DNA of 43,392 nucleotides. It comes from a virus. Shown piece by piece: positions 6,649-43,392 of the stretch. The position numbers and the translations under genes were made by a program. Positions within the stretch are counted from its first letter, which is position 1; each line of letters begins with the position of its first letter. The stretch is from IMG/VR virus record IMGVR_UViG_3300034062_002603, positions 1-43,392 of that record. One strand, 5' to 3'. A model generated the notes under the pieces. That model was given only the letters and a program-made list of their open reading frames with translations. It had not been told where the DNA came from and did no database searches.

Positions 6649-6680
6649 AAATTTTAAAAATATTTTATTAAATAATAGCA

Positions 6681-6710
6681 CAAAATTAAAAAGGTTTTTT
6701 AACTTTGCAA
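6681..6710 (-). promoter_or_regulatory. Full Bacteroidota promoter for leftward recombination-packaging operon
   Basis: On the minus strand TTG (6710-6708) is followed after exactly 19 bases by TAATTTTG (6688-6681). This matches the Bacteroidota primary-sigma consensus TTG-N19-TAnnTTTG. It fires towards the exonuclease start at 6648. Its -33 element overlaps the -7 box of the divergent plus-strand promoter, so the two may interfere. Confidence 0.75.
6700..6707 (+). promoter_or_regulatory. -7 box of rightward early promoter
   Basis: TAACTTTG fits TAnnTTTG, 33 bases before the ATG of the HTH gene at 6740. No TTG occurs at the -33 position. A degenerate version of the paired TTTTATAAAA element seen at other promoters lies upstream (6652-6672). 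The box overlaps the -33 element of the leftward promoter. Confidence 0.55.
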
Positions 6711-6739: not shown

Positions 6740-6988
6740 ATGAAAACATTTGAACAGCTATCTATTAGATGCGACATTTTAGGCATCAGTATTTCGGAAC
6801 TTTGCAGGCGGGCTGATGTAGGGCGGCAAACTGTCGAATACTGGTCTAAGGTAGAACCGCAAACATTGATCATCTATTTTAAACTTATGAATGCTTTAAA
6901 CCAAATCGAAAATGAACACAATACAGCTACGGCCATATCAATCGAAAAGCGTAAGCGACATAAGAGAGAGTTACCGACAGGGGAATAA
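6740..6988 (+). CDS. Small helix-turn-helix regulator
   Basis: An 82-residue protein. I choose the ATG at 6740 (MKTFEQLS) rather than an upstream TTG at 6716. Residues about 19-45 form a Cro/XRE-like helix-turn-helix (GISISELCRRADVGRQTVEYW), so it should bind DNA. It is the first rightward gene, facing divergent promoters, and is a natural candidate for the early regulator of this switch region. Its last 77 bases overlap the start of the helicase gene in another frame. The basic C-terminus (EKRKRHKREL) is therefore encoded by DNA that also specifies the helicase N-terminus. With no integrase seen, a lysogeny repressor role is not supported. Confidence 0.72.
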   Translation: MKTFEQLSIRCDILGISISELCRRADVGRQTVEYWSKVEPQTLIIYFKLMNALNQIENEHNTATAISIEKRKRHKRELPTGE

Positions 6989-10561: not shown

Positions 10562-12273
10562 AACAACAAAAACCAATAGACTGGGAACAAAAACCAAAAC
10601 AAACTGCAAAGAAACCTAAAGCAGAACGGCCAGCAGCATCAGCACCTGAAACCGATAAAAAAGGTTTTATAGGTGGATATTTTAGGCCTTTAGGTTGGGG
10701 TATTGAAGATGGGCAAATGCTTTATTATTTCTACATTCGTTCAACAATGTCCATTGTAAAATATAAAGCTGTAACAATAAACAAGGCTAATTTATTAAGC
10801 ATAGCGCCGTTAGAATTTTGGGTAACAAGTTTTCCAAACCGCGACAATAGTAATTACGAAGTAACCACGGCGGCAGATTATCTTATAAATTTCTGCAATG
10901 CGATTGGTTTTTATAATACTGAAAACATACGCGGTCGCGGTGCATGGCAAGAAAAAAACGGCGTTGTATTTCATGCTGGGCAACAGTTGATACAAGATAA
11001 AAAGCGCTACAATTTAGGCGGCTTAGATACTAAATACAGCTATGTTTATAATAAGGCTATTGATATGCCTATTGAAGCGGCGTTATTGCCTACTGAGGCT
11101 GGTATGATACCTAAGATGTTAAATAAATTGAATTGGCAAACAAAGGCCGATGCAATACTATTATCGGGTTGGTTAGCATTGGCGCCAATTTCGGGTATTT
11201 TAAAATGGCGGCCTCATGTTTGGATAACAGGACCGCGCGGTAATGGTAAATCATGGGTTTTAGAAAATATTATAAATGAAGTTATCGGCAACATTGCAGT
11301 TAGTGTACAGGGCACAGCGGCAACAGAACCAGCAGTAAGGCAAAAACTAAACAGTGATGCACTACCTGTAACCATTGATGAAGGCGAAGGTAATGATGAA
11401 CGCGCAGCTCAACGGATGCAAGAAATAATAGGATTAGCAAGGGCAGCAAGTAGTGAAAAATCACCTGCAATAGCTAAAGGCGGCAAAGATGGTAAAGCTA
11501 TTGATTATTTTGTTAGAAGCTGTTTTTTATTTGTAAGTATAAATCCGCAATTAGTAAACGATTCAGACAAACGCCGTTTTTGTGTTTTGGAACTAAAGAA
11601 ATTACCCGATCCGAAACAATTTAACGAACTTGAAAAGCTAAAAAGCAAAGTTATTACAGATGATTTCGGGCCACGTTTTCAGGCGCGAATGCTAAACTTA
11701 GCAGATAACATACAAAAAAGCATTAAGCTATTTACAAACGCCGTATCGTTATTAACTGAAGATAGGGCAGTAGGTGATCAGTTTGGTGCGCTTATGGGCG
11801 GTTGGTGGCATACGCTGCACGATGACCCGGTAACGGCCGAAATAGCATTAGAAGAAGCAAACGCAATTTTAGAAATGCGCAAATATGAAGAAGACAAAGA
11901 AGATTTGACAGATGAACAAAGATGTTTGCAACAGATTTTAAGTCAAGAAATACGAATAGAAGCCGAAAACTATGTAGGCAATAAAACGATAGGCGAATTA
12001 GTTGAATGCGCATTTAATTACCAGCCATCGGTTAAGCCATCACAAGCTGAAGCGAACGAAAGGTTAATGCGTTTAGGTATCCGGGTAATTGGTGATGACT
12101 TACTAATACTGAATACATCTGTTTATGTAAAAAAAGTTTTAAGCGGCACGCCTTGGCAAATATCATGGAATACTATCTTATTAAGGCTTAAAGGCGCATC
12201 ACGGCGAAGTAATACGCGTTTTGCAGCTGGTATGTCTGGGCGCTGCGTTTCAATAAATTTAAAAAATTTATAA
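10558..12273 (+). CDS. DUF927/D5-like replicative helicase ATPase
   Basis: A 571-residue AAA+/SF3-like ATPase. Residues 1-35 are a basic linker. About 37-180 form a strand-rich N-terminal domain. The ATPase core has Walker A GPRGNGKS (225-232), Walker B VTIDEGEG (271-278), a sensor region SINP (327-330) and paired arginines (339-340). A winged-helix-like end follows. The layout resembles DUF927-type phage proteins that drive DNA replication forks. It is the last gene of the core replication operon and is coupled to the DnaB-N protein. I see no primase zinc finger or TOPRIM motif, so priming is probably by the host. Confidence 0.78.
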   Translation: MKQQKPIDWEQKPKQTAKKPKAERPAASAPETDKKGFIGGYFRPLGWGIEDGQMLYYFYIRSTMSIVKYKAVTINKANLLSIAPLEFWVTSFPNRDNSNYEVTTAADYLINFCNAIGFYNTENIRGRGAWQEKNGVVFHAGQQLIQDKKRYNLGGLDTKYSYVYNKAIDMPIEAALLPTEAGMIPKMLNKLNWQTKADAILLSGWLALAPISGILKWRPHVWITGPRGNGKSWVLENIINEVIGNIAVSVQGTAATEPAVRQKLNSDALPVTIDEGEGNDERAAQRMQEIIGLARAASSEKSPAIAKGGKDGKAIDYFVRSCFLFVSINPQLVNDSDKRRFCVLELKKLPDPKQFNELEKLKSKVITDDFGPRFQARMLNLADNIQKSIKLFTNAVSLLTEDRAVGDQFGALMGGWWHTLHDDPVTAEIALEEANAILEMRKYEEDKEDLTDEQRCLQQILSQEIRIEAENYVGNKTIGELVECAFNYQPSVKPSQAEANERLMRLGIRVIGDDLLILNTSVYVKKVLSGTPWQISWNTILLRLKGASRRSNTRFAAGMSGRCVSINLKNL

Positions 12274-12300
12274 AAATTTTTATAAAAATAGTTTAAAATA
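12258..12300. promoter_or_regulatory. Paired AT-palindrome promoter element (copy 1)
   Basis: ATTTATAAAA (12266-12275) and TTTTATAAAA (12278-12287) are tandem palindromes with centres 12 bp apart. The nearer centre is 31.5 bp before the first T of the -7 box at 12314. The same spacing occurs for the promoter at 40918, and related pairs lie at 40871-40891 and 25821-25841. Confidence 0.55.
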
Positions 12301-12313
12301 TAAAAAGTGTTTG

Positions 12314-12321
12314 TATCTTCG
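12314..12321 (+). promoter_or_regulatory. -7 box for the accessory small-gene region
   Basis: TATCTTCG is one base from the TAnnTTTG consensus, directly preceded by TTTG, and lies 41 bases before the ATG at 12362. There is no TTG at -33; the paired TTTTATAAAA element occupies the upstream region instead. Confidence 0.55.
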
Positions 12322-12361
12322 TGTCAGGATTTGATTAAATGACAACAAAAAACTTTAGATT

Positions 12362-12673
12362 ATGAACACATATTTAAGATTTACAGAAATTGAACCAACG
12401 CAAAATGAAATATCTTACAATGGTTTTAATAACACAGAATTAAAAGGTATTTGTTGTTTTGAATTAAATGATGAAGAATCATTATATTTTCAATCAAGAA
12501 AAATAGCTGAAAAATATTCTAATTATGTAAAAAACTCAAATGGTATAGCTTTTATTTTTCAAGGTAAATTTATTGAAGAAAATTTTAATAATGAAGGTGT
12601 AATTGCAAAATATAATAATACAATTGAAAAAATACAACTAATACATACTGAACACGGATATAAAATATTATAA
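12362..12673 (+). CDS. Hypothetical protein, 103 residues, AT-rich gene
   Basis: I do not recognise this protein. It is soluble, asparagine- and glutamate-rich (for example FNNTELKGICCFEL and GKFIEENFNNEG) and lacks membrane segments. The gene is clearly more AT-rich than its neighbours, which suggests recent arrival. It is first after the promoter at 12314 and is preceded by the A-rich leader ACAAAAAACTTTAGATT that recurs, in variant form, before several following genes. Confidence 0.6.
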   Translation: MNTYLRFTEIEPTQNEISYNGFNNTELKGICCFELNDEESLYFQSRKIAEKYSNYVKNSNGIAFIFQGKFIEENFNNEGVIAKYNNTIEKIQLIHTEHGYKIL

Positions 12674-12691
12674 TAAACATACTTTAACAAC

Positions 12692-12713
12692 AAAAAACTT
12701 CACACAATGAAAA
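12692..12713 (+). repeat. 22-bp duplicated translation-start leader (copy 1)
   Basis: The A6-CTT-CACACA-ATG-AAAA block here is identical to 12945-12966. It covers the start codon at 12707. It is probably a duplicated ribosome-entry context, since Bacteroidota favour A-rich leaders over Shine-Dalgarno sites. Confidence 0.75.
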
Positions 12714-12946
12714 CTATCAATGATTTAAAAGCAGCACTATTAGCTCAGTATTGGGATACAGAAGAATCTAAAAACTTACAAGAAACTCACATCGAAGTAA
12801 GTGCAGATTCTGGAATCATCTACGGCAGCATGATTTGCTGCAACGGATTAGGCAGCATTTTTGGGTGCGGCGTTTATACCGACATGGATAAAAAAGGTTT
12901 TGAACATTTGTTTGAACCCGGTAAAACATTTTTAATTGAACTTTAA
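12707..12946 (+). CDS. Hypothetical protein, 79 residues
   Basis: A small soluble protein with a glycine- and cysteine-containing centre (YGSMICCNGLGSIFGCGVYTDMD), perhaps a compact beta fold. I do not recognise a family. The start is fixed by the repeated leader AAAAAACTTCACACA immediately before the ATG. The gene lies in an array of small accessory genes expressed with replication functions. Confidence 0.6.
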   Translation: MKTINDLKAALLAQYWDTEESKNLQETHIEVSADSGIIYGSMICCNGLGSIFGCGVYTDMDKKGFEHLFEPGKTFLIEL

Positions 12947-12966
12947 AAAACTTCACACAATGAAAA
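12945..12966 (+). repeat. 22-bp duplicated translation-start leader (copy 2)
   Basis: An exact copy of 12692-12713. Because the copy ends in ATG at 12960, it favours that start for the next gene over the upstream ATG at 12936. Confidence 0.75.
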
Positions 12967-13157
12967 GAATTATCACATTTACCAGCAAGTTTAACATAGG
13001 CGATATAGTAACCTATGATGACAGAATGACAAAGCCTTACACATCTAAAATTATTGATATTAAGTTTACTGATTCTTATCAGTACATGTACAGACTTGAA
13101 GATAAAATAGGCATTTGGTTAACCGACAGATATTTAACAAATGACACCAAAGGATAA
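12960..13157 (+). CDS. Small SH3-like hypothetical protein, 65 residues
   Basis: I choose the ATG at 12960 because the duplicated leader precedes it; an ATG at 12936 would overlap the previous gene. The 65-residue product has alternating hydrophobic strands and the phrase FNIGDIVTYDDR followed by KIIDIKF and GIWLTDRYL. That resembles small SH3/KOW-type barrels found in phages that adapt or bind other proteins. Function is unknown. It overlaps the next gene by 17 bases. Confidence 0.6.
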   Translation: MKRIITFTSKFNIGDIVTYDDRMTKPYTSKIIDIKFTDSYQYMYRLEDKIGIWLTDRYLTNDTKG

Positions 13158-13380
13158 AGCAACCGAACTTATAGAACGTTATAGCTTTGGTCGCTGGCAA
13201 CAAATGAACGATGTTGAAAAGCTACACACTATAAACATTTGTTTAATGGTTGCTGACGAATTAGGCGATTGCGTTGTATCAGATTTGTTAGTACACGATT
13301 TGACAGATGAAAAAACTACTGAGGTAGTACAGTATTATTTTGACGTATTAAATGAAATTATTAACTTTAAAAACTTCTAA
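13141..13380 (+). CDS. Hypothetical protein, 79 residues
   Basis: A helical acidic protein (MTPKDKATELIERY, then NICLMVADELGD and VVQYYFDVLNEII). The DKATELIxRY opening and the central helix with ALxVADE-like spacing are seen in small proteins common in Bacteroidota phages with no known role. It begins inside the previous gene and ends two bases before the next. Confidence 0.62.
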   Translation: MTPKDKATELIERYSFGRWQQMNDVEKLHTINICLMVADELGDCVVSDLLVHDLTDEKTTEVVQYYFDVLNEIINFKNF

Positions 13381-13382
13381 AA

Positions 13383-13715
13383 ATGAAAACGACAACAGAT
13401 TATTTAATGCCAAACGACAAAACATTAGTTATTACAGGTGAATACAATGAATATTGCCGCGGATCTCGCGACAGATACGGCGTACCACTTGAACCTGATG
13501 AAGATGCTTTTTTTGAGATTCTTAGCACTACAATAGATGATACTGAATACACAACTGATGAACTTGCAATAATGCTTAATATGACTTATGATGAAGTTGA
13601 AGAACTTTTGCAAGAATGTTTAAGCAGTCAAGACGAATCAGATTACGATGCTTATATTGACAACCAAATTCATAACCAACTTGATGACCTTCTATATGAA
13701 AAATATAATTATTAG
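13383..13715 (+). CDS. Hypothetical acidic protein, 110 residues
   Basis: A strongly acidic soluble protein (many Asp, Glu and Tyr; for example LEPDEDAFFEIL and YDEVEELLQECL). The charge pattern recalls DNA-mimic or anti-host small proteins, but no family is recognised, so this is speculation. It has an ATG in the A-rich context AAAAACTTCTAAAA, related to the leader before nearby genes, and overlaps the next small membrane protein by about 20 bases. Confidence 0.55.
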   Translation: MKTTTDYLMPNDKTLVITGEYNEYCRGSRDRYGVPLEPDEDAFFEILSTTIDDTEYTTDELAIMLNMTYDEVEELLQECLSSQDESDYDAYIDNQIHNQLDDLLYEKYNY

Positions 13716-13851
13716 TGCATGCGCTGGCTTATTAGTTGGTTTAACAATGGCCTTAACACTTGAAAAACTTTATCTTATGTTAGTATTTTGTTTTATTGGC
13801 GGCTTATGCTTTGGTATTGGTTTAATTTTGTTAATTGATAAAAAGAAATGA
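13696..13851 (+). CDS. Small two-helix membrane protein, 51 residues
   Basis: The ATG at 13696 (MKNIIISACAG) gives a 51-residue protein made almost entirely of two hydrophobic helices (about 3-19 and 26-46) with a short LEKLY turn and a lysine-rich tail (DKKK). An upstream ATG at 13648 would add 16 residues encoded inside the previous gene. The topology resembles small holins or antiholins, but the position in the accessory region gives no strong support. Confidence 0.5.
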   Translation: MKNIIISACAGLLVGLTMALTLEKLYLMLVFCFIGGLCFGIGLILLIDKKK

Positions 13852-13852
13852 T

Positions 13853-14062
13853 ATGAAACAGACAGCAATAGAATGGTTGGTTGAGCAAATCATTAAAGAA
13901 AAAGGATTGGTTGATTTAGATATACAAGCAGCCTTAGAAATGGAAAAGCAGCAGATTGTAGATGCTTATTTACAAAAAAGAAGGCTATCCAATATATCTA
14001 AATCTATGAAATTATGTGTAGATGCTGAACAATACTACAATGAAATCTACAAAAAACCTTAA
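13853..14062 (+). CDS. Conserved small phage protein (MKQTAIEWL family)
   Basis: The start at 13853 gives 69 residues beginning MKQTAIEWLVEQI. The order of TAxEWLxEQI, then EMEKQQIxDAY, then EQYYNEIYK near the end is one I recognise from small proteins very common in Bacteroidota phages. Function is unknown. It is helical and amphipathic, overlaps the next gene by 23 bases and lies directly after a small membrane protein. Confidence 0.7.
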   Translation: MKQTAIEWLVEQIIKEKGLVDLDIQAALEMEKQQIVDAYLQKRRLSNISKSMKLCVDAEQYYNEIYKKP

Positions 14063-14234
14063 CATCACATTAGAAGATTATGACAGCACCTGCGGGGATG
14101 GGTGCTGTCATGATTTTGGCACAATAACAACTGTTAACGGCGTTGAACTTGAATTCCATAATACAGATACTGAAACGATTGTTAGGCAGATACTTGAGCA
14201 TTTAGGGTATAATGTAACTATTGAATATAAATGA
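14040..14234 (+). CDS. Hypothetical Cys/His-containing protein, 64 residues
   Basis: The ATG at 14040 (MKSTKNLNITLED) is chosen over 14022. The protein has the cluster STCGDGCCHDFG, which could bind a metal, followed by a strand-rich part (TITTVNGVELEFHN) and a C-terminal helix. No family is recognised. Its stop codon (14232-14234) overlaps the first helix of the structured RNA element that follows. Confidence 0.55.
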   Translation: MKSTKNLNITLEDYDSTCGDGCCHDFGTITTVNGVELEFHNTDTETIVRQILEHLGYNVTIEYK

Positions 14235-14410
14235 TACTTGGTTTCGGTAGAGTTCCAAAATAGGCAGGCCGCTAAACAAAAACTAACCTGACAGCTGGAA
14301 AGACAGCATTTTTAAGAACACACAAAGTAATAAAGCTCAGTGCTGACTCTTAACTGAGAGGTACAAGTATACTAGAAGGCAGGTGAAGCTCCTGAAGTGT
14401 GTTCTTTTTT
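14234..14410 (+). ncRNA. Candidate structured RNA with pseudoknot topology
   Basis: A 194-bp gap without a gene holds several complementary segments. ATACTTG (14234-14240) pairs with CAAGTAT (14364-14370), and AAGAACACAC (14314-14323) pairs perfectly with GTGTGTTCTT (14397-14406). These two long-range helices interleave. Local hairpins are GCTG/CAGC with a GAAAGA loop (14294-14307), CTCAG/CTGAG (14336-14358) and CAGG/CCTG (14380-14394). The last long helix runs into a T tract (14405-14410), as at a transcript end. It matches no RNA family I can name. It may be a free small RNA or the leader of the gene at 14429. Confidence 0.5.
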
Positions 14411-14428
14411 AACTTTAAAATACGCACA

Positions 14429-14602
14429 ATGACAGAACTAACCATTGAACAGGCAAACAAAATGCCTTACATTGATTGGGTTAAACATTTTAGGCCCGAC
14501 TGGACAGATGATGAATGTGAGTTCTATTTATGGGAATACACTTGCTTTCCATTTGGTTTTAAAGAAACAATCAAACAGCTAAACGATCAGCTTAAACAAT
14601 GA
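14429..14602 (+). CDS. Hypothetical protein, 57 residues
   Basis: The ATG at 14429 follows the leader ACTTTAAAATACGCACA. The 57-residue product is acidic and aromatic (MPYIDWVKHFRPDWTDDECEF), with the look of a small helical adaptor. An upstream extension to 14399 would run through the T tract of the structured RNA, so I reject it. It shares an ATGA overlap with the membrane protein that follows. Confidence 0.6.
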   Translation: MTELTIEQANKMPYIDWVKHFRPDWTDDECEFYLWEYTCFPFGFKETIKQLNDQLKQ

Positions 14603-14844
14603 AATACATTATCCTATTCGTAGCGGCCGTAATAATCGAAATAGCAAGCACGTTCTACATTTCAGCTGTTTCAGATAGGCAGCTTTTGCCGATGGTTTTT
14701 TGGGCGTTTATAGGCCCGTTTTTAGGCTTGCCCTTTCTTGCATATCAAATAGAAGCAAAGAACAACCGTGACCGCTTAAAACTTGCGCTATGCTATGGTG
14801 TAGGCTATGCAACAGGCGCAGCATTAGTAAACATTATAACTTAA
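14599..14844 (+). CDS. Small integral membrane protein, 81 residues
   Basis: Three hydrophobic segments (about 2-23, 31-49 and 62-80) with a charged loop EAKNNRDRLK. It overlaps the previous gene by four bases and lies just before the glucosaminidase gene. That makes a holin-like or lysis-accessory role conceivable, although the better holin candidate is at 17834. No family is recognised with certainty. Confidence 0.6.
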   Translation: MKYIILFVAAVIIEIASTFYISAVSDRQLLPMVFWAFIGPFLGLPFLAYQIEAKNNRDRLKLALCYGVGYATGAALVNIIT

Positions 14845-14850
14845 ACACAC

Positions 14851-15375
14851 ATGAAAACAGCAATTTTAATTTTGGCAGTAGTGCTATTTACTTCTGCTAC
14901 ATTCCCGGCACTAAAAAAGCAGCCAAAACAAAACCACATTGAACGTTACATAAACCGCTTTTTAAAGACTGCAAAGCAAGAAGCTAAACTTTATAATATA
15001 CCTGTAAGCATAACGCTGGCACAGGGCATTATAGAATCGAATGCAGGGCGTTCAAGTTTAGCAGTTAAGCATAATAATCACTTTGGCGTAAAGTATCGCG
15101 GTAGGGGCAAATATGCCATTTACAAAGATGATACACCTAAAGATAAATTTCAAGTTTACAAATCTGCATGGTGGTCATATCGCGACCATTCGAAGCTGCT
15201 AACATCTAAACATTACAGGCATTTAACAAAACTTAGCAGATTAAATTATAAAGAATGGGCGCACGGTCTTAAAAAATGTGGATATGCAACCGAAAAAAAA
15301 TATGCTGAAATACTTATTAGTGTCATTGAAAAATATGACCTTTGGGTTTATGATGTACCGATTTTTTCACGATAA
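14851..15375 (+). CDS. Secreted glucosaminidase-type endolysin
   Basis: A 174-residue protein with an N-terminal signal or signal-anchor (residues 1-18, ILILAVVLFTSATFPA) and a glucosaminidase domain (glycoside hydrolase 73 family). The hallmark is ITLAQGIIESNAGRSSLA, with the catalytic glutamate at E62, then NNHFGVK (75-81) and a YRDHSKLL stretch. It should hydrolyse N-acetylglucosamine linkages in peptidoglycan. The signal sequence would export it through the Sec system. It follows a small membrane protein, suggesting a lysis unit. The next gene starts inside its last 23 bases. Confidence 0.85.
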   Translation: MKTAILILAVVLFTSATFPALKKQPKQNHIERYINRFLKTAKQEAKLYNIPVSITLAQGIIESNAGRSSLAVKHNNHFGVKYRGRGKYAIYKDDTPKDKFQVYKSAWWSYRDHSKLLTSKHYRHLTKLSRLNYKEWAHGLKKCGYATEKKYAEILISVIEKYDLWVYDVPIFSR

Positions 15376-15592
15376 GACAGAAGGCGATGAATGGCTAATA
15401 ATTCAGCATTTACCGATGGGTAATTACAAAGCTATCTGCACACGTGAAAATCAATATTATAAATTAGGCGATGTAAAAACATTTTTTTTCGATGACTTTA
15501 ATATCTGGTCAAAGGGAAAATTAAAAGCTAATAATCATTCTTTAACAAATAAAAAAAAATACGATGGTAAACCGCGTTACGCTAATTGGTAG
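15353..15592 (+). CDS. Hypothetical protein, 79 residues
   Basis: The start is uncertain; the ATG at 15353 gives the least overlap with the glucosaminidase (23 bases), and 15350 is an in-frame alternative. The product begins MYRFFHDKTEGDEWLI and has a beta-rich centre (GNYKAICTRENQYYKLGDVKTFFFDD) and a basic tail. It overlaps the SSB start by 29 bases. No family is recognised. Confidence 0.5.
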   Translation: MYRFFHDKTEGDEWLIIQHLPMGNYKAICTRENQYYKLGDVKTFFFDDFNIWSKGKLKANNHSLTNKKKYDGKPRYANW

Positions 15593-25792: not shown

Positions 25793-25800
25793 CAAAGATA
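25793..25800 (-). promoter_or_regulatory. -7 box of the capsid promoter
   Basis: TATCTTTG on the minus strand is a perfect TAnnTTTG. No TTG sits 19 bases upstream. Instead, two AT palindromes (TTTTATAAAT 25821-25830 and TTTTATAGAA 25832-25841) lie 11 bp apart, the nearer centre being 25.5 bp upstream. Confidence 0.7.
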
Positions 25801-25820: not shown

Positions 25821-25841
25821 TTTTATAAATTTTTTATAGAA
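25821..25841. promoter_or_regulatory. Paired AT-palindrome promoter element (copy 2)
   Basis: TTTTATAAAT and TTTTATAGAA have centres 11 bp apart. Read on the minus strand, about 33 bases here (through AAAATATT, TATAAAA and TTATTT) match the region 40865-40897 upstream of the sigma-operon promoter with only a few mismatches. Confidence 0.6.
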
Positions 25842-40016: not shown

Positions 40017-40824
40017 TACTTTTTGTTTATTTTTTTATTAGCCTGTTCGGCCCTATCATTATCTTTTAATATTTGTTCTAATGCCGCGTAATAATCACGT
40101 ATAACCCAAAATCTAACATTTGCCATTTGCACCGGGTCACCCTTTGTTATAATATAATCGTTTTCGCGGTTTTGTTCTTTCAGTTTTTGTAATGCGTGTT
40201 GATATGTTGCAGGTTTCTTTTTTGGTTTTGCGTTCGGTTCAATTTTGTTTAGCCTTGGAAAGTTTAAACGTTTGAAGCGCTCGAACCTTTCAATATTTGT
40301 TCTATACTGTTCAAAAAAAAAGCGCGCAGTTCATCGTCTTTTTTAATTGCATCCATTTTGCGCTGCTGTGTTTCGCTGTTTATTATGTATGGGTTTTCGC
40401 CATCAATATAAAAAAAATACAAACCAGCTTCTAATAATAGATCATCTAACTTAACGCTTTTAAGCCTGTAAAGAATGTCGTTTAGTTGGTCCTTGCTTTT
40501 AGTATGAAATTCTTTTAGCTTATCGCGTGTCATGTTTTGCCACGGCATTTCTTCAACCGTTTCTAAAATGCCGTTTAGCTTTTCAACTACTTCTGTTTTG
40601 TGAATACCAAAATCAATAGCGGTCATAGCTTCTTCAATCCTTTGCGCACGTTCACGCGTTAAGTTTGCAGGATTCTTTAAAATATAAAAGTTATTACCAG
40701 CGCGGTCAGTAAATACTCTTGTCAATTCTATACGCTGCTTTGTAGTTTCGGGAATGTAGGTTTTAAGCCACTTCTGGTAATTACTTTCGTTTTGTTCTGC
40801 CCTGTTTCTTTTTCTGAAAATCAT
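40016..40824 (-). CDS. Tail assembly chaperone GT fusion made by -1 frameshift
   Basis: If ribosomes slip back one base on the nine-T run (40321-40313), the 186-residue product continues in a second open frame of 98 codons to a stop at 40018-40016. This gives a protein of 269 residues. The extension begins FFFEQYRTNIERFERFKRLN and includes QMANVRFWVIRDYYAALEQI. Its stop overlaps the tape measure ATG (TAATG). This is the lambda G/GT arrangement, in which a minor frameshift product helps load the tape measure protein. No separate start codon is needed for the extension. The slippage is inferred from the frame and the run, and is strongly expected for this position. Confidence 0.8.
40264..40824 (-). 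CDS. Tail assembly chaperone (G-like, zero-frame product)
   Basis: A 186-residue soluble helical protein immediately upstream of the tape measure gene. It opens with MIFRKRNRAEQNESNYQKWL and has a central basic and acidic mixture (LTRERAQRIEEAMTAID, KDQLNDILYRLKSVKLDD). It ends shortly after the slippery run (LRAFFLNSIEQILKG). By position and by the frameshift organisation it is the G-type chaperone. It is the first gene of the leftward late operon, with a TAACTTTA -7 box at 40850-40843. Confidence 0.72.
   Translation of the reverse strand: MIFRKRNRAEQNESNYQKWLKTYIPETTKQRIELTRVFTDRAGNNFYILKNPANLTRERAQRIEEAMTAIDFGIHKTEVVEKLNGILETVEEMPWQNMTRDKLKEFHTKSKDQLNDILYRLKSVKLDDLLLEAGLYFFYIDGENPYIINSETQQRKMDAIKKDDELRAFFLNSIEQILKGSSASNV
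40313..40321 (-). promoter_or_regulatory. Slippery site of the G/GT frameshift
   Basis: Nine T residues on the minus strand, read GCT TTT TTT TTG in the zero frame. The heptamer T TTT TTT allows both tRNAs to re-pair one base back, giving TTT GAA. A weak TTGAA/TTCAA stem could form about 20 bases downstream. Confidence 0.8.
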
Positions 40825-40842
40825 GTGTATTTAATTTGGTTG

Positions 40843-40850
40843 TAAAGTTA
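40843..40850 (-). promoter_or_regulatory. -7 box for the leftward late operon
   Basis: TAACTTTA on the minus strand is one base from TAnnTTTG. The nearer AT palindrome centre (40875.5) lies 25.5 bp upstream, the same distance as at the capsid promoter. The ATG of the tail chaperone is at 40824. Confidence 0.45.
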
Positions 40851-40870
40851 GGAGAAAAAAAGATAAAATA

Positions 40871-40891
40871 TTTTATAAAATTTTTATAAAA
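40871..40891. promoter_or_regulatory. Paired AT-palindrome element between divergent promoters (copy 3)
   Basis: TTTTATAAAA at 40871-40880 and 40882-40891: two identical perfect palindromes with centres 11 bp apart. They lie between the leftward late promoter (25.5 bp to the -7 box) and the rightward sigma-operon promoter (31.5 bp to the -7 box), so one site could serve both. Confidence 0.65.
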
Positions 40892-40917
40892 TTATTTTCA
40901 GTTCTATAAGTAATGTG

Positions 40918-40925
40918 TAATTTTG
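40918..40925 (+). promoter_or_regulatory. -7 box for the sigma-factor operon
   Basis: TAATTTTG fits TAnnTTTG, 43 bases before the ATG at 40969. The -33 region reads TTT rather than TTG. The palindrome pair lies upstream with the same 31.5-bp spacing as at 12314. Confidence 0.6.
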
Positions 40926-40968
40926 TATCAAACAAAATCAAATTTTTTAATTTTTAAAACATCACATC

Positions 40969-41280
40969 ATGAAAACACTACTTTTTATTTTACTATTTAG
41001 CGCCGCAGCATACGCGCAAACAGACACTATGTACTGCATTCAGATACTTAGCACAAGACACCCAGAATTCATACGCGCTGAACATTTAGCGATGTGTACA
41101 ATAGAACAGGCGCAAGTAGAACAAACAGATAGCCTATACCGGATTATGTTTGTTTACAACACTTATGAAGAGGCAGAAATTATGTTAACCACTTGGAAGC
41201 GCGCACACAAAGACGCGTTTATTTGCCGCCGTACATCACAACAAGTTTTAAACTTTTATCAATTTTACACTTATGATTAA
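40969..41280 (+). CDS. Secreted SPOR-like protein
   Basis: A 103-residue protein with a clear signal peptide (MKTLLFILLFSAAAYAQ, cleavage after AYA). The mature part has a SPOR-like pattern: MYCIQILSTRHPEFI, then YRIMFVYNTYEEAEIMLTTWKRAHKDAFI. SPOR domains bind peptidoglycan strands stripped of stem peptides at division sites. In a phage such a protein could steer wall enzymes or disturb division. It is the first gene after the promoter at 40918 and overlaps the sigma-factor gene by eight bases. Confidence 0.7.
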   Translation: MKTLLFILLFSAAAYAQTDTMYCIQILSTRHPEFIRAEHLAMCTIEQAQVEQTDSLYRIMFVYNTYEEAEIMLTTWKRAHKDAFICRRTSQQVLNFYQFYTYD

Positions 41281-42040
41281 GCATATAGATATTAAAGGAA
41301 ATAACCACCGAAACAAAAAAGGTATTCTACAGCAGTTCTTAACCGAAGCGCAAAAGTATAAGCCGCTTACATTTGAACAGGAACGAACCGCAACACGCGA
41401 CCAGCTAATAAATCACAATATGTTATTTGCGGCATCAGTTGCGTTTCGTTACGATACTGCACAAGTTGATATAATGGACCTAATTAGTGAAGCTATGTTT
41501 GGCCTAATCAAAGCTGCCGATACGTTTAACCCAGCGTTTGAAAACAAGTTTATCAGTTACGCATTATTTCAGATTCAGCGCTACATTAAAGACTTTATTG
41601 ATACTAAAAAAAACTGCGTAAGGCTGCCGCATCGAATATCACAGGTTAAATACCAAATCGGTAAGTATGAAGAAACAGATAGTTACCTGTTATCGGAAAA
41701 ACTAAACATACCTGAAAACATTATTAAATCAGCGCAAAGTATTACAGGTTTTGTCAGCTTAGACGATACTAATTTTGATGGCGATATTATTTATCAAGTT
41801 GCATCAGATGATCAAACAGATAAACACGTTTTACAGTTAGAACTAAAAGAACTTTACAACGAAGTTACCGAATGTTTAACAGGCCGTGAATTAGAAGTTT
41901 TAAGGTATAGATACTTTGATAACTTCCCGCAAGATTTAAGCCAAGTAGCTGAAAAACTAAAAGTTTGCCGTGAACGTGTCAGGCAAATAGAAAAACAAGC
42001 GTATAAAAAAATAAGAAATAAATATGCAAACGGAATCTAA
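41273..42040 (+). CDS. Sigma-70 family RNA polymerase sigma factor
   Basis: A 255-residue protein. Residues about 40-110 form region 2 (DQLINHNMLFAASVAFRY, DLISEAMFGLIKAADTFNP, FISYALFQIQRYIKDFI) and the end is region 4 with a helix-turn-helix (LTGRELEVLRYRYF, LSQVAEKLKVCRERVRQIEKQ). It should redirect host RNA polymerase to phage promoters. No anti-sigma partner is seen. It is transcribed divergently from the late operon, sharing the palindrome element, which makes late-gene control the likely role. Confidence 0.88.
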   Translation: MIKHIDIKGNNHRNKKGILQQFLTEAQKYKPLTFEQERTATRDQLINHNMLFAASVAFRYDTAQVDIMDLISEAMFGLIKAADTFNPAFENKFISYALFQIQRYIKDFIDTKKNCVRLPHRISQVKYQIGKYEETDSYLLSEKLNIPENIIKSAQSITGFVSLDDTNFDGDIIYQVASDDQTDKHVLQLELKELYNEVTECLTGRELEVLRYRYFDNFPQDLSQVAEKLKVCRERVRQIEKQAYKKIRNKYANGI

Positions 42041-42422
42041 ATGGATACGCGAACTAATATTAAGCGGTCAAACTGATAATATTGAACTTGGTTTAATCCT
42101 TAATGATTCGTTTAAATGTTTTCCGTTAACCCGTAAGTTTTACAGAAAACATAAGCGCTTTAAATTCTGGCAGCCATCGCGGCATTATTCAGTTTTAGAA
42201 TCAGAATCGCGTTATTATTCGTGGGTTTCATTATTAAATAACGAACTAAAAACGCACAGGGCATACTTTTGGTTAGACTTTAAAGAACCTAAGTACAAAA
42301 CGCCTTGGGAGCATTGGCAGCTGCATATTACCAATCATTTCAAATGGCCTTATAATGGTCCAATGTTTACAGGCGGCGGCCATCCTTATACTACTATGTT
42401 TATACGAGGTCACAATTTGTGA
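42024..42422 (+). CDS. Hypothetical protein, 132 residues
   Basis: An aromatic, basic protein (KFYRKHKRFKFWQPSRHYSV, YWxxF patterns and a C-terminal GGGHPYTTMF). It overlaps the end of the sigma-factor gene by 17 bases. The many Trp, Tyr, His and Lys residues suggest a compact nucleic-acid or protein binder. No family is recognised. A terminator follows. Confidence 0.6.
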   Translation: MQTESKWIRELILSGQTDNIELGLILNDSFKCFPLTRKFYRKHKRFKFWQPSRHYSVLESESRYYSWVSLLNNELKTHRAYFWLDFKEPKYKTPWEHWQLHITNHFKWPYNGPMFTGGGHPYTTMFIRGHNL

Positions 42423-42435
42423 TTTCAAGTTAGAC

Positions 42436-42466
42436 CACCTCGTTGGCTTCAACGGGGTGTTATTTT
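42436..42466 (+). terminator. Terminator of the sigma-factor operon
   Basis: CACCTCGTTG (42436-42445) pairs with CAACGGGGTG (42450-42459) over ten bases with a GCTT loop and one wobble, followed by TTATTTT. It ends the rightward operon before the convergent metallophosphoesterase gene. Confidence 0.8.
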
Positions 42467-42542
42467 ACTTTGCGGCCTTAAAGTAACATAACCACCTATA
42501 CTACTATGTTCACAAAATACTAATGTTCATTTTACGTGAACG

Positions 42543-43379
42543 CTAATACATTTTACCATTAGCCAAAAACTTATCAGCCCAAACGTTAACCTGTTCTACA
42601 TAAAAATCGCCATTGTCAGTTATATTGACGATGGCGAAACCATTTGCCCACAATTGGCGCTGGAATCGCGGCATATAGCTAAAGCCTTTAGATTTAATAT
42701 CATATAACCCGCCAATGTTAAACGCGGCCCTATTACCTGAGTGATAACATTGAACCCGGTGTGTATGGCCAAACATAACTGAGTGTTGCGTTTTGTCTAA
42801 ATGCGCTTTAGCCGCGTGAATAGATGTATAAACGCCGTGAACTATATCTAAGTGTTTGCCCAACGTGAAATAGTCACTTTGCCAATCTGTTTTTACTTCC
42901 CATCCACGTTCATACAGGTATAGCGCATCAGTAGGATTTATTAGCGCGCCGCCGTATTTAGGGTTGTCCTTTTCTTTGATGTGCCTGAAGTATCGGTCTT
43001 CATGGTTGCCAAATAAAAAATACTTCTTAGCACCTTTGAACGCGCTGTTAATATCGTCAATGCCCTGCAATCCATCAATGTATTCATCCTGTAATGTAAG
43101 GCCCGATAAGTTGGCCAATGATTCAGCATTATAGCTGCCAAGTGTATAAAGATCTAAATAATCACCCGCTAAAACAATGCCGTGTAAATTTGTGCCAAGT
43201 TCAGATATAAGCCTTAATAGTTTTTGCCAAAGTATCTGATTGTGAAACGGTCTATGTACATCACTAACAACTAACCAGCGCTGCAAACTTTTGTTTTGTC
43301 GGCGCTTTTCATTTATTATGTTTTTCCAATATTCTACTTCTTCATTAGAATGTACTTTAATTTTGGGGCGGTAAATCAT
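42543..43379 (-). CDS. Calcineurin-like metallophosphoesterase
   Basis: A 278-residue enzyme with the full two-metal site of the family: SDVH (D40, H42), GDYLDL (D73), GNHEDR (N125, H126), H181 in VHG, and GHTHR (H205, H207). It could act on nucleotides, cyclic nucleotides, protein phosphates or DNA ends (Mre11-like), and the sequence does not decide which. It is the last gene of the terminase operon: its ATG lies four bases after the terL stop across the circular join (the same start is duplicated at 46-48). Co-transcription with terminase hints at a role at DNA ends. Confidence 0.9.
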   Translation of the reverse strand: MIYRPKIKVHSNEEVEYWKNIINEKRRQNKSLQRWLVVSDVHRPFHNQILWQKLLRLISELGTNLHGIVLAGDYLDLYTLGSYNAESLANLSGLTLQDEYIDGLQGIDDINSAFKGAKKYFLFGNHEDRYFRHIKEKDNPKYGGALINPTDALYLYERGWEVKTDWQSDYFTLGKHLDIVHGVYTSIHAAKAHLDKTQHSVMFGHTHRVQCYHSGNRAAFNIGGLYDIKSKGFSYMPRFQRQLWANGFAIVNITDNGDFYVEQVNVWADKFLANGKMY

Positions 43380-43392
43380 AGGATTATAGTTT
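43332..43392. repeat. Right copy of 61-bp terminal repeat
   Basis: Identical to positions 1-61. It contains the first 16 codons of the metallophosphoesterase and the end of terL (from 43384). Joining the two copies closes the circle at 43,331 bp. Confidence 0.95.

Follow-up and report, generated by a model that had tools for sequence, protein, structure and literature searches.

What recognises the two A/T palindromes that stand in tandem between a pair of divergent promoters near position 40871 of a phage genome, and again at several further promoters of the same phage? The window, that is, the whole 43,392-nucleotide stretch analysed here, is an entire IMG/VR record and represents a phage with numerous IMG/VR relatives. 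Family models recognised a terminase, a tape measure protein and a sigma factor among its products, and a blastn search of positions 40200–43392 against named phages gave no match. The host presumably belongs to the Bacteroidota, a phylum that abounds in gut and freshwater habitats. An earlier note, made from the letters alone, had taken the paired sites as the mark of a phage-specific promoter class, driven either by an activator dimer or by the encoded sigma factor.

The paired sites and their promoters

Three pairs of TTTTATAAAA sites were confirmed in the window, at 12266–12287, 25821–25841 and 40871–40891, each made up of two TTTTATAAAA-like 10-mers with centres 11–12 bp apart, and nowhere else in it do two 10-mers of this kind (at most one mismatch each) start 5–40 bp apart. 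When the sequence was shuffled as a whole, in 1-kb blocks or in 200-bp blocks, the mean number of pairs was 0.02, 0.06 and 0.07, respectively, against the 3 observed, and none of the 300 shuffles run per mode reached three pairs. The earlier note was right in placing the nearer palindrome centre 31.5 or 25.5 bp from the −7 boxes and in calling about 33 bases of the capsid and sigma copies nearly identical.

At the divergent locus, the 21-bp pair TTTTATAAAA-T-TTTTATAAAA (40871–40891; centres 40875.5 and 40886.5) lies between the promoters of the sigma operon and of g40264. The sigma-operon −7 box TAATTTTG (40918–40925, plus strand) is an exact TAnnTTTG located 31.5 bp from the nearer centre, its −33 place (40896–40898, plus strand) reads TTT in the window and TTG in most relatives, and the sigma factor gene itself (41273–42040, plus strand) encodes Sigma70 regions 2 and 4. 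To the left, g40264 (40264–40824, minus strand) is the first gene of a leftward gene run containing the tape-measure gene, and its structural promoter has the −7 box TAACTTTA (40843–40850, minus strand) and no −33 element; here the 25.5-bp geometry described in the earlier note stood, but the box is one letter off TAnnTTTG. Between the pair and this box (40851–40870), a run of about seven T, read on the leftward strand, is kept in the relatives examined and is usually followed there by a G that the window lacks.

The pair at 12266–12287, with a centre spacing of 12 bp, overlaps with its first half the stop codon of the 10558–12273 gene and precedes the promoter of gene 12362, whose −7 box TATCTTCG (12314–12321, plus strand) is one letter off TAnnTTTG and lies 31.5 bp from the nearer centre; the −33 place (12292–12294) again reads TTT. 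In one relative, the 46.4-kb contig G007, the 10558–12273 gene is present in two differing copies (92% and 86%), one at each end (L134 and L136), and each copy is followed by a pair of its own, as would result from a duplication or a mixed assembly. The third pair (25821–25841) lies upstream of the promoter of the 23960–25678 gene (minus strand), which is called the major capsid gene after the earlier note and its position only and whose product gave no PHROG hit. The −7 box of this promoter, TATCTTTG (25793–25800, minus strand), is an exact TAnnTTTG at 25.5 bp from the nearer centre, and no −33 element is present.

In addition, a degenerate pair (6652–6672) is placed just upstream of the ATG of the leftward exonuclease gene, within its leader, and at the same time upstream of the rightward promoter of the HTH gene at 6740, whose −7 box TAACTTTG (6700–6707, plus strand; without a TTG at −33) is about 32 bp away. 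Similar letters were seen in the 12 relative rows read, with a near-perfect pair in relative G004. The neighbouring promoter at 6681–6710 had been described as a perfect TTG-N19 promoter without the pair, which holds; its direction, however, is leftward (TTG-N19-TAATTTTG, minus strand, −7 T at 6688), so that it reads the exonuclease gene. It carries A/T tracts at similar positions.

Conservation in related phages

To place the pairs in a wider frame, 18 phage genomes, namely the window and 17 related records, were scanned for strict pairs (at most one mismatch in all). All 27 strict pairs lay outside tblastn matches to window proteins, the measure of coding sequence used here, by which genes without such a match score as non-coding. 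Each of the 27 was also accompanied by a −7 box, either TAnnTTTG or a sequence differing from it by one letter, whose distance to the nearer centre was 25, 30, 31 or 32 bp, as against 276 of 13,614 random points outside window-protein matches (2.0%). Because the genomes are related, the 27 pairs amount to about four loci rather than 27 independent events. With up to two mismatches, 34 of 36 pairs were non-coding and had a box, one of the two exceptions lying at a contig edge. With up to three, 47 of 64 fitted, 8 of the 64 being coding and 9 more lacking a box at the named distances, and in 20 records 45 forward matches stood against 23 for the pattern read backwards; given this coding and boxless fraction, degenerate pairs alone prove nothing. 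A chance origin of the pairs was rejected on the shuffle counts and the −7-box distances of the relatives' pairs. The objection raised in the earlier note itself, that the paired motif might be as frequent inside genes or in shuffled sequence, is answered by the same counts (0 of 27 strict pairs inside a window-protein match; shuffle means of 0.02–0.07), and its view of the pair as a promoter element standing at fixed positions at several phage promoters was borne out.

The pair was present at 27 of 32 sigma loci, the other 5 of which start 11–868 bp ahead of the sigma gene. Among the 25 of these 27 loci that were listed (L004 and L016 being the other two), the distance from pair to sigma gene was 96–1337 bp in 24, and in L020 the pair is reversed relative to the sigma gene. 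The stretch that follows the rightward pair promoters (40926–41272 and 12330–15560) varies among relatives, which gives the appearance of variable cargo slots behind conserved promoters.

For the sigma locus, 30 distinct sequences were collected with a search pattern that demanded a −7-like box on each side, and the 40871 pair was unchanged letter for letter in 20 of them. In the 28 sequences of equal length, 9 of 588 letters of the pair (1.5%) were off the consensus, 8 of the 9 changes being from A/T to A/T, as compared with 9.6% for the left spacer, 19.2% for the right spacer, 11.6% for the right −7 box and 3.6% each for the TTG and the left −7 box; no other part of this divergent promoter is conserved as well as the pair. 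The box at 40850, whose type was required by the search, read TAACTTTA in 22 of the 30 sequences, TACCTTTG in 4 and TATCTTTA in 4.

At the −33 place of the sigma operon, 25 of the 30 distinct sequences had TTG-N19, 2 had TTG-N18, and 3, including the window, had no TTG; among the 28, TTG was kept with N19 spacing in 25. In the whole viral collection, pair-N4-TTG-N19-TAnnTTTG was found in 30 viral stretches, all with N19 although N18–20 was allowed. At the promoter of gene 12362, each of the 11 rows from relatives, which come from 10 records, showed TTG-N18/19, and none of these rows differed from the window in the 20-bp core TTTATAAAAATTTTTATAAA of the 12266 pair. The statement that these promoters have no TTG at −33 is thus right for the window and a few close relatives but not for most relatives, which have TTG at both rightward promoters; the window has lost the G. 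To judge by the TTG-N18/19 of the relatives, the rightward promoters are of the ordinary Bacteroidota type, and the pair adjoins them directly on the upstream side.

No −33 TTG was found at the structural promoters, either in the 35 distinct sequences of the capsid locus or in the 30 of the sigma locus. The 35 capsid sequences, which were gathered by a search that required the TAnnTTTG box and do not include the outgroups G010/L080 and L089, shared 25 consecutive columns of 100% A/T. With the first T of TAnnTTTG numbered −12, following the numbering in passages of PMC6847099, the central A5 tract of the capsid pair (−46 to −42) was invariant in all 35, while the palindromes decay. A strict pair stood before the capsid gene in 20 of 65 capsid loci, some of which end short of that place. 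In the outgroups G010/L080 (capsid gene 69–70% identical) and L089 (75%), no pair was found before the capsid gene, and the pair is therefore a feature of this phage group and not of the wider family; the capsid promoter of G010/L080 has a TTG 21 bp before the box.

Seven distinct sequences of the capsid locus showed a TTG-N18/19 promoter on the far side of the capsid pair as well. In G001 and G005 (L129 and L132; 2 of 16 records), an opposite-strand gene of 243–266 aa is inserted between the scaffold and capsid genes and has its own TTG-N18-TAATTTTG promoter, which makes use of the capsid pair in the opposite direction. The inserted protein (IDGQHR) is presumably ParB-like. Of the 42 viral stretches that contain the exact 21-mer of the 40871 pair, 34 belong to this phage group (14 assignments checked, 20 on contigs known as sigma- or capsid-gene relatives) and 8 are unrelated, none of the latter being among the stretches with pair-N4-TTG-N19-TAnnTTTG.

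Similar elements in other viruses and in chromosomes

A looser pattern, TTTTWWAAA-WWW-TTTWWAAA at a gap of 3–8 bp to TTG-N19-TAnnTTTG, matched 62 viral stretches, 40 of which carry relatives of window proteins. The 22 others had gaps of 5 (14), 6 (7) and 8 bp (1) and formed 10 unrelated groups by blastn; over all 62, the gap was 4–6 bp in 61. An equally wide control gap of 14–19 bp yielded 8 stretches in 2 groups, all with gap 16 (L235–L242), and the difference between 10 and 2 groups corresponded to p = 0.02. One of these eight, L239, encodes a relative of a window methyltransferase. The gap-16 arrangement places the A/T pair about one helical turn further upstream of the TTG. With gap 16 alone represented in the control range, the element is helically phased relative to the core promoter, as judged from only 12 unrelated groups in addition to the present phage group.

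A search of genomes of bacteria and archaea with a related pattern, whose half-site spacing was 10 bp instead of 11, gave 17 chromosomal loci, 17 of 17 from Bacteroidota by record title, the promoter part of the pattern itself favouring this phylum. At ten of the 17, a tRNA gene (for Asn, Gln, Glu or Asp) follows 25–77 bp downstream, which places the element, in its looser form, at stable-RNA promoters. Four of these ten also precede a protein that we take to be ribosomal protein S20, and other loci precede proteins that we read as HU (L192) and ornithine aminotransferase (L183).

With free spacing in 295 Bacteroidia genomes, the nearer half-site was 2–9 bp from the TTG in 17 of 23 sites, where 6.3 were expected (p = 5e-6; 16 of 22 without the seed genome, p = 1e-5), and in 397 Flavobacteriaceae genomes 13 of 31 pairs lay 28–32 bp from the −7 box, where 5.0 were expected (p = 6e-4; 12 of 30 without the seed genome, p = 0.0015), both ranges having been chosen after the lists were viewed and the smallest gap being taken for sites readable in more than one way. 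Patterns turned backwards together with their promoter gave 2 matches against 27 in the Bacteroidia and 11 against 34 in the Flavobacteriaceae. The element is uncommon in hosts, with matches in 19 of 295 Bacteroidia and 29 of 397 Flavobacteriaceae genomes, and the 25-bp geometry showed no excess there (4 found at 24–27 bp against 4.0 expected). When 12 hit genomes were searched with strict half-sites, 1 of them matched; therefore, the strict palindrome is rare in hosts, and it is the looser form that phages and hosts have in common.

The idea of a promoter class private to the phage was accordingly rejected: a like arrangement occurs in Bacteroidota chromosomes and in 10 unrelated viral groups, and the rightward promoters of the relatives are ordinary TTG-N18/19 promoters with the pair beside the −33 element.

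Candidate readers of the pairs

We consider it probable, at roughly 0.7, that the RNA polymerase of the host reads the pairs as UP-like promoter elements. They look like docking sites for this enzyme because a similar element precedes tRNA and other genes in some Bacteroidota and is found in unrelated phages. In such an element, phased A/T tracts about one helical turn apart would begin directly upstream of −33 (about −37 to −60) and would offer, on one helix face, two docking sites for the alpha C-terminal domains (alpha-CTDs), thereby strengthening ordinary host-sigma promoters; we infer both the alpha-CTD binding and the effect on promoter strength. At the rightward promoters (sigma operon and gene 12362), the sites would be the AnTn tracts centred near −40 and −49, whereas at the leftward structural promoters the array would be read from the opposite side, with the middle tract at −43 as the proximal site. 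Tract centres were located, among others, at −49.0 and −39.5 for 40918, at −61.0, −49.5 and −40.0 for 12314, at −52.5 and −43.0 for 40850 and at −43.0 for 25800; those of the pairless exonuclease promoter were −58.5, −49.5 and −39.5. With the tracts offset from the palindromes by half a unit, the 6-bp difference between the two geometries (31.5 against 25.5 bp) would follow directly if the tracts, and not the palindromes, were the sites. As the array would be readable from both sides, one array could therefore serve two divergent promoters, as at 40871 and at the capsid locus of some relatives.

Between −60 and −37, A/T was found at 24 of 24 positions in three pair promoters and at 22 of 24 in the capsid promoter, an A/T-rich block in every case. 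The alpha CTD family was detected in 6 of 6 Bacteroidota genomes, and one Flavobacterium alpha retains VRALNCLK (VRxxNCLK) and GKKSLTE, motifs that contain residues involved in UP DNA binding in E. coli. Unlike the E. coli UP element, the pair adjoins a Bacteroidota −33/−7 promoter, is built of TTTTATAAAA palindromes and is common to divergent promoters. All four pair promoters also match the E. coli consensus at 9 of 14 positions, no better than random all-A/T sequence (mean 8.5), and the pair is therefore described as working like an UP element without being filed as E. coli-type. The likenesses to the UP element of E. coli stable-RNA promoters (rrnB P1; passages of PMC4390567) are that both are A/T-rich, lie directly upstream of −35/−33, have subsites about one helical turn apart, are present at tRNA promoters and can work one turn further out. 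According to the same passages, alpha-CTD binds UP elements, which may be part of a third or more of the stable-RNA promoters in E. coli. With the Bacteroidota TTTG/TAnnTTTG promoters (sigma ABfr), the pair promoters share the −7 box, the spacing and, in relatives, the −33 TTG, and they differ in the phased pair added upstream. Since the −33 motif of F. johnsoniae is called "much less evident" in a passage of PMC6847099, the absence of TTG is not unusual.

Several observations count against the UP-like reading, namely the match to the E. coli consensus at the level of random A/T, the rarity of the form in chromosomes, the lack of an excess of the 25-bp geometry in hosts and the pairless capsid promoter of the outgroup G010/L080. 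The letters at 40871, at 1.5% off-consensus, are moreover kept more strictly than a loose A/T requirement needs, although 8 of the 9 changes stay within A/T. Such strictness would suit an operator of a phage-encoded dimeric activator that switches on late genes, with a 21-bp dyad whose centre, near −43 at both structural promoters, takes the place of the missing −33, as for Mu Mor at Pm, and with a second role at the rightward promoters. We regard this as unlikely on the whole, and an activator dimer at the two structural promoters, with their 25.5-bp geometry and no −33, as possible. Pm, which combines a Mor dimer with a partial UP element, resembles the leftward promoters only, being a phage promoter without a −35 and with a dyad near −43; this geometry recurs at 40850 and 25800, where the dyad centre of −43.0 compares with −43.5 for Mor in passages of PMC4390567. 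The shared geometry, the consistent lack of −33 in the 35 capsid and 30 sigma-locus sequences, the near privacy of the exact 21-mer to the phage group (34 of 42 viral stretches) and the lack of enrichment of the 25-bp geometry in hosts all speak for an activator. The Mor site, on the other hand, is given in these passages as 16 bp long, with arms of 5 bp around a spacer rich in G/C, while the pair is all A/T, and at the capsid locus the dyad decays and is lost in several relatives in which the A tract and −7 remain. A like element before chromosomal tRNA genes also argues against an operator, and among 16 Pfam-scanned phage proteins, a subset of the ORFs, there was no Mor-like protein and no activator family above the cut-off, the 6740 protein giving only weak sub-threshold HTH hits. 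It is likewise doubtful that the 21-bp dyad is a shared switch, UP-like for the sigma and early/middle operons and a phage late-factor site for the capsid and tape-measure operons; the late factor would then bind the dyad half a turn closer, in place of −33, and relatives would re-use the dyad for the gene inserted at their capsid locus.

The encoded sigma factor, the other reader put forward in the earlier note, is a very unlikely one. The pair does precede the sigma operon itself, and region 2.3/2.4 of the phage protein differs from that of a Flavobacterium sigma, but a host-consensus −7 box is found at the sigma operon and at the capsid promoter (where all 35 distinct sequences keep TAnnTTTG, as the search required), TTG-N18/19 is present in most relatives, and chromosomes have a like arrangement. 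Next to a host-type box, the phage stretch YALFQIQ, which we take to be region 2.3/2.4 and which reads YAVWWIR in a Flavobacterium primary-type sigma, speaks against this reader as well. A nucleoid-protein site, or simple bending that the phased A tracts impose by themselves with no contact to alpha-CTD, would agree with AnTn tracts 9.5–11.5 bp apart; it is highly improbable, as the preferred position is right upstream of −33 and not at any distance.

In the open-access literature, covered by titles and the beginnings of abstracts and with subscription papers mostly outside, no UP element was described in Bacteroidota among the matches listed. An upstream element of the kind proposed here, present in phages and before some chromosomal tRNA genes, could explain strong Bacteroidota promoters that have no TTG, and as a defined upstream element it would be a testable part for expression tools.
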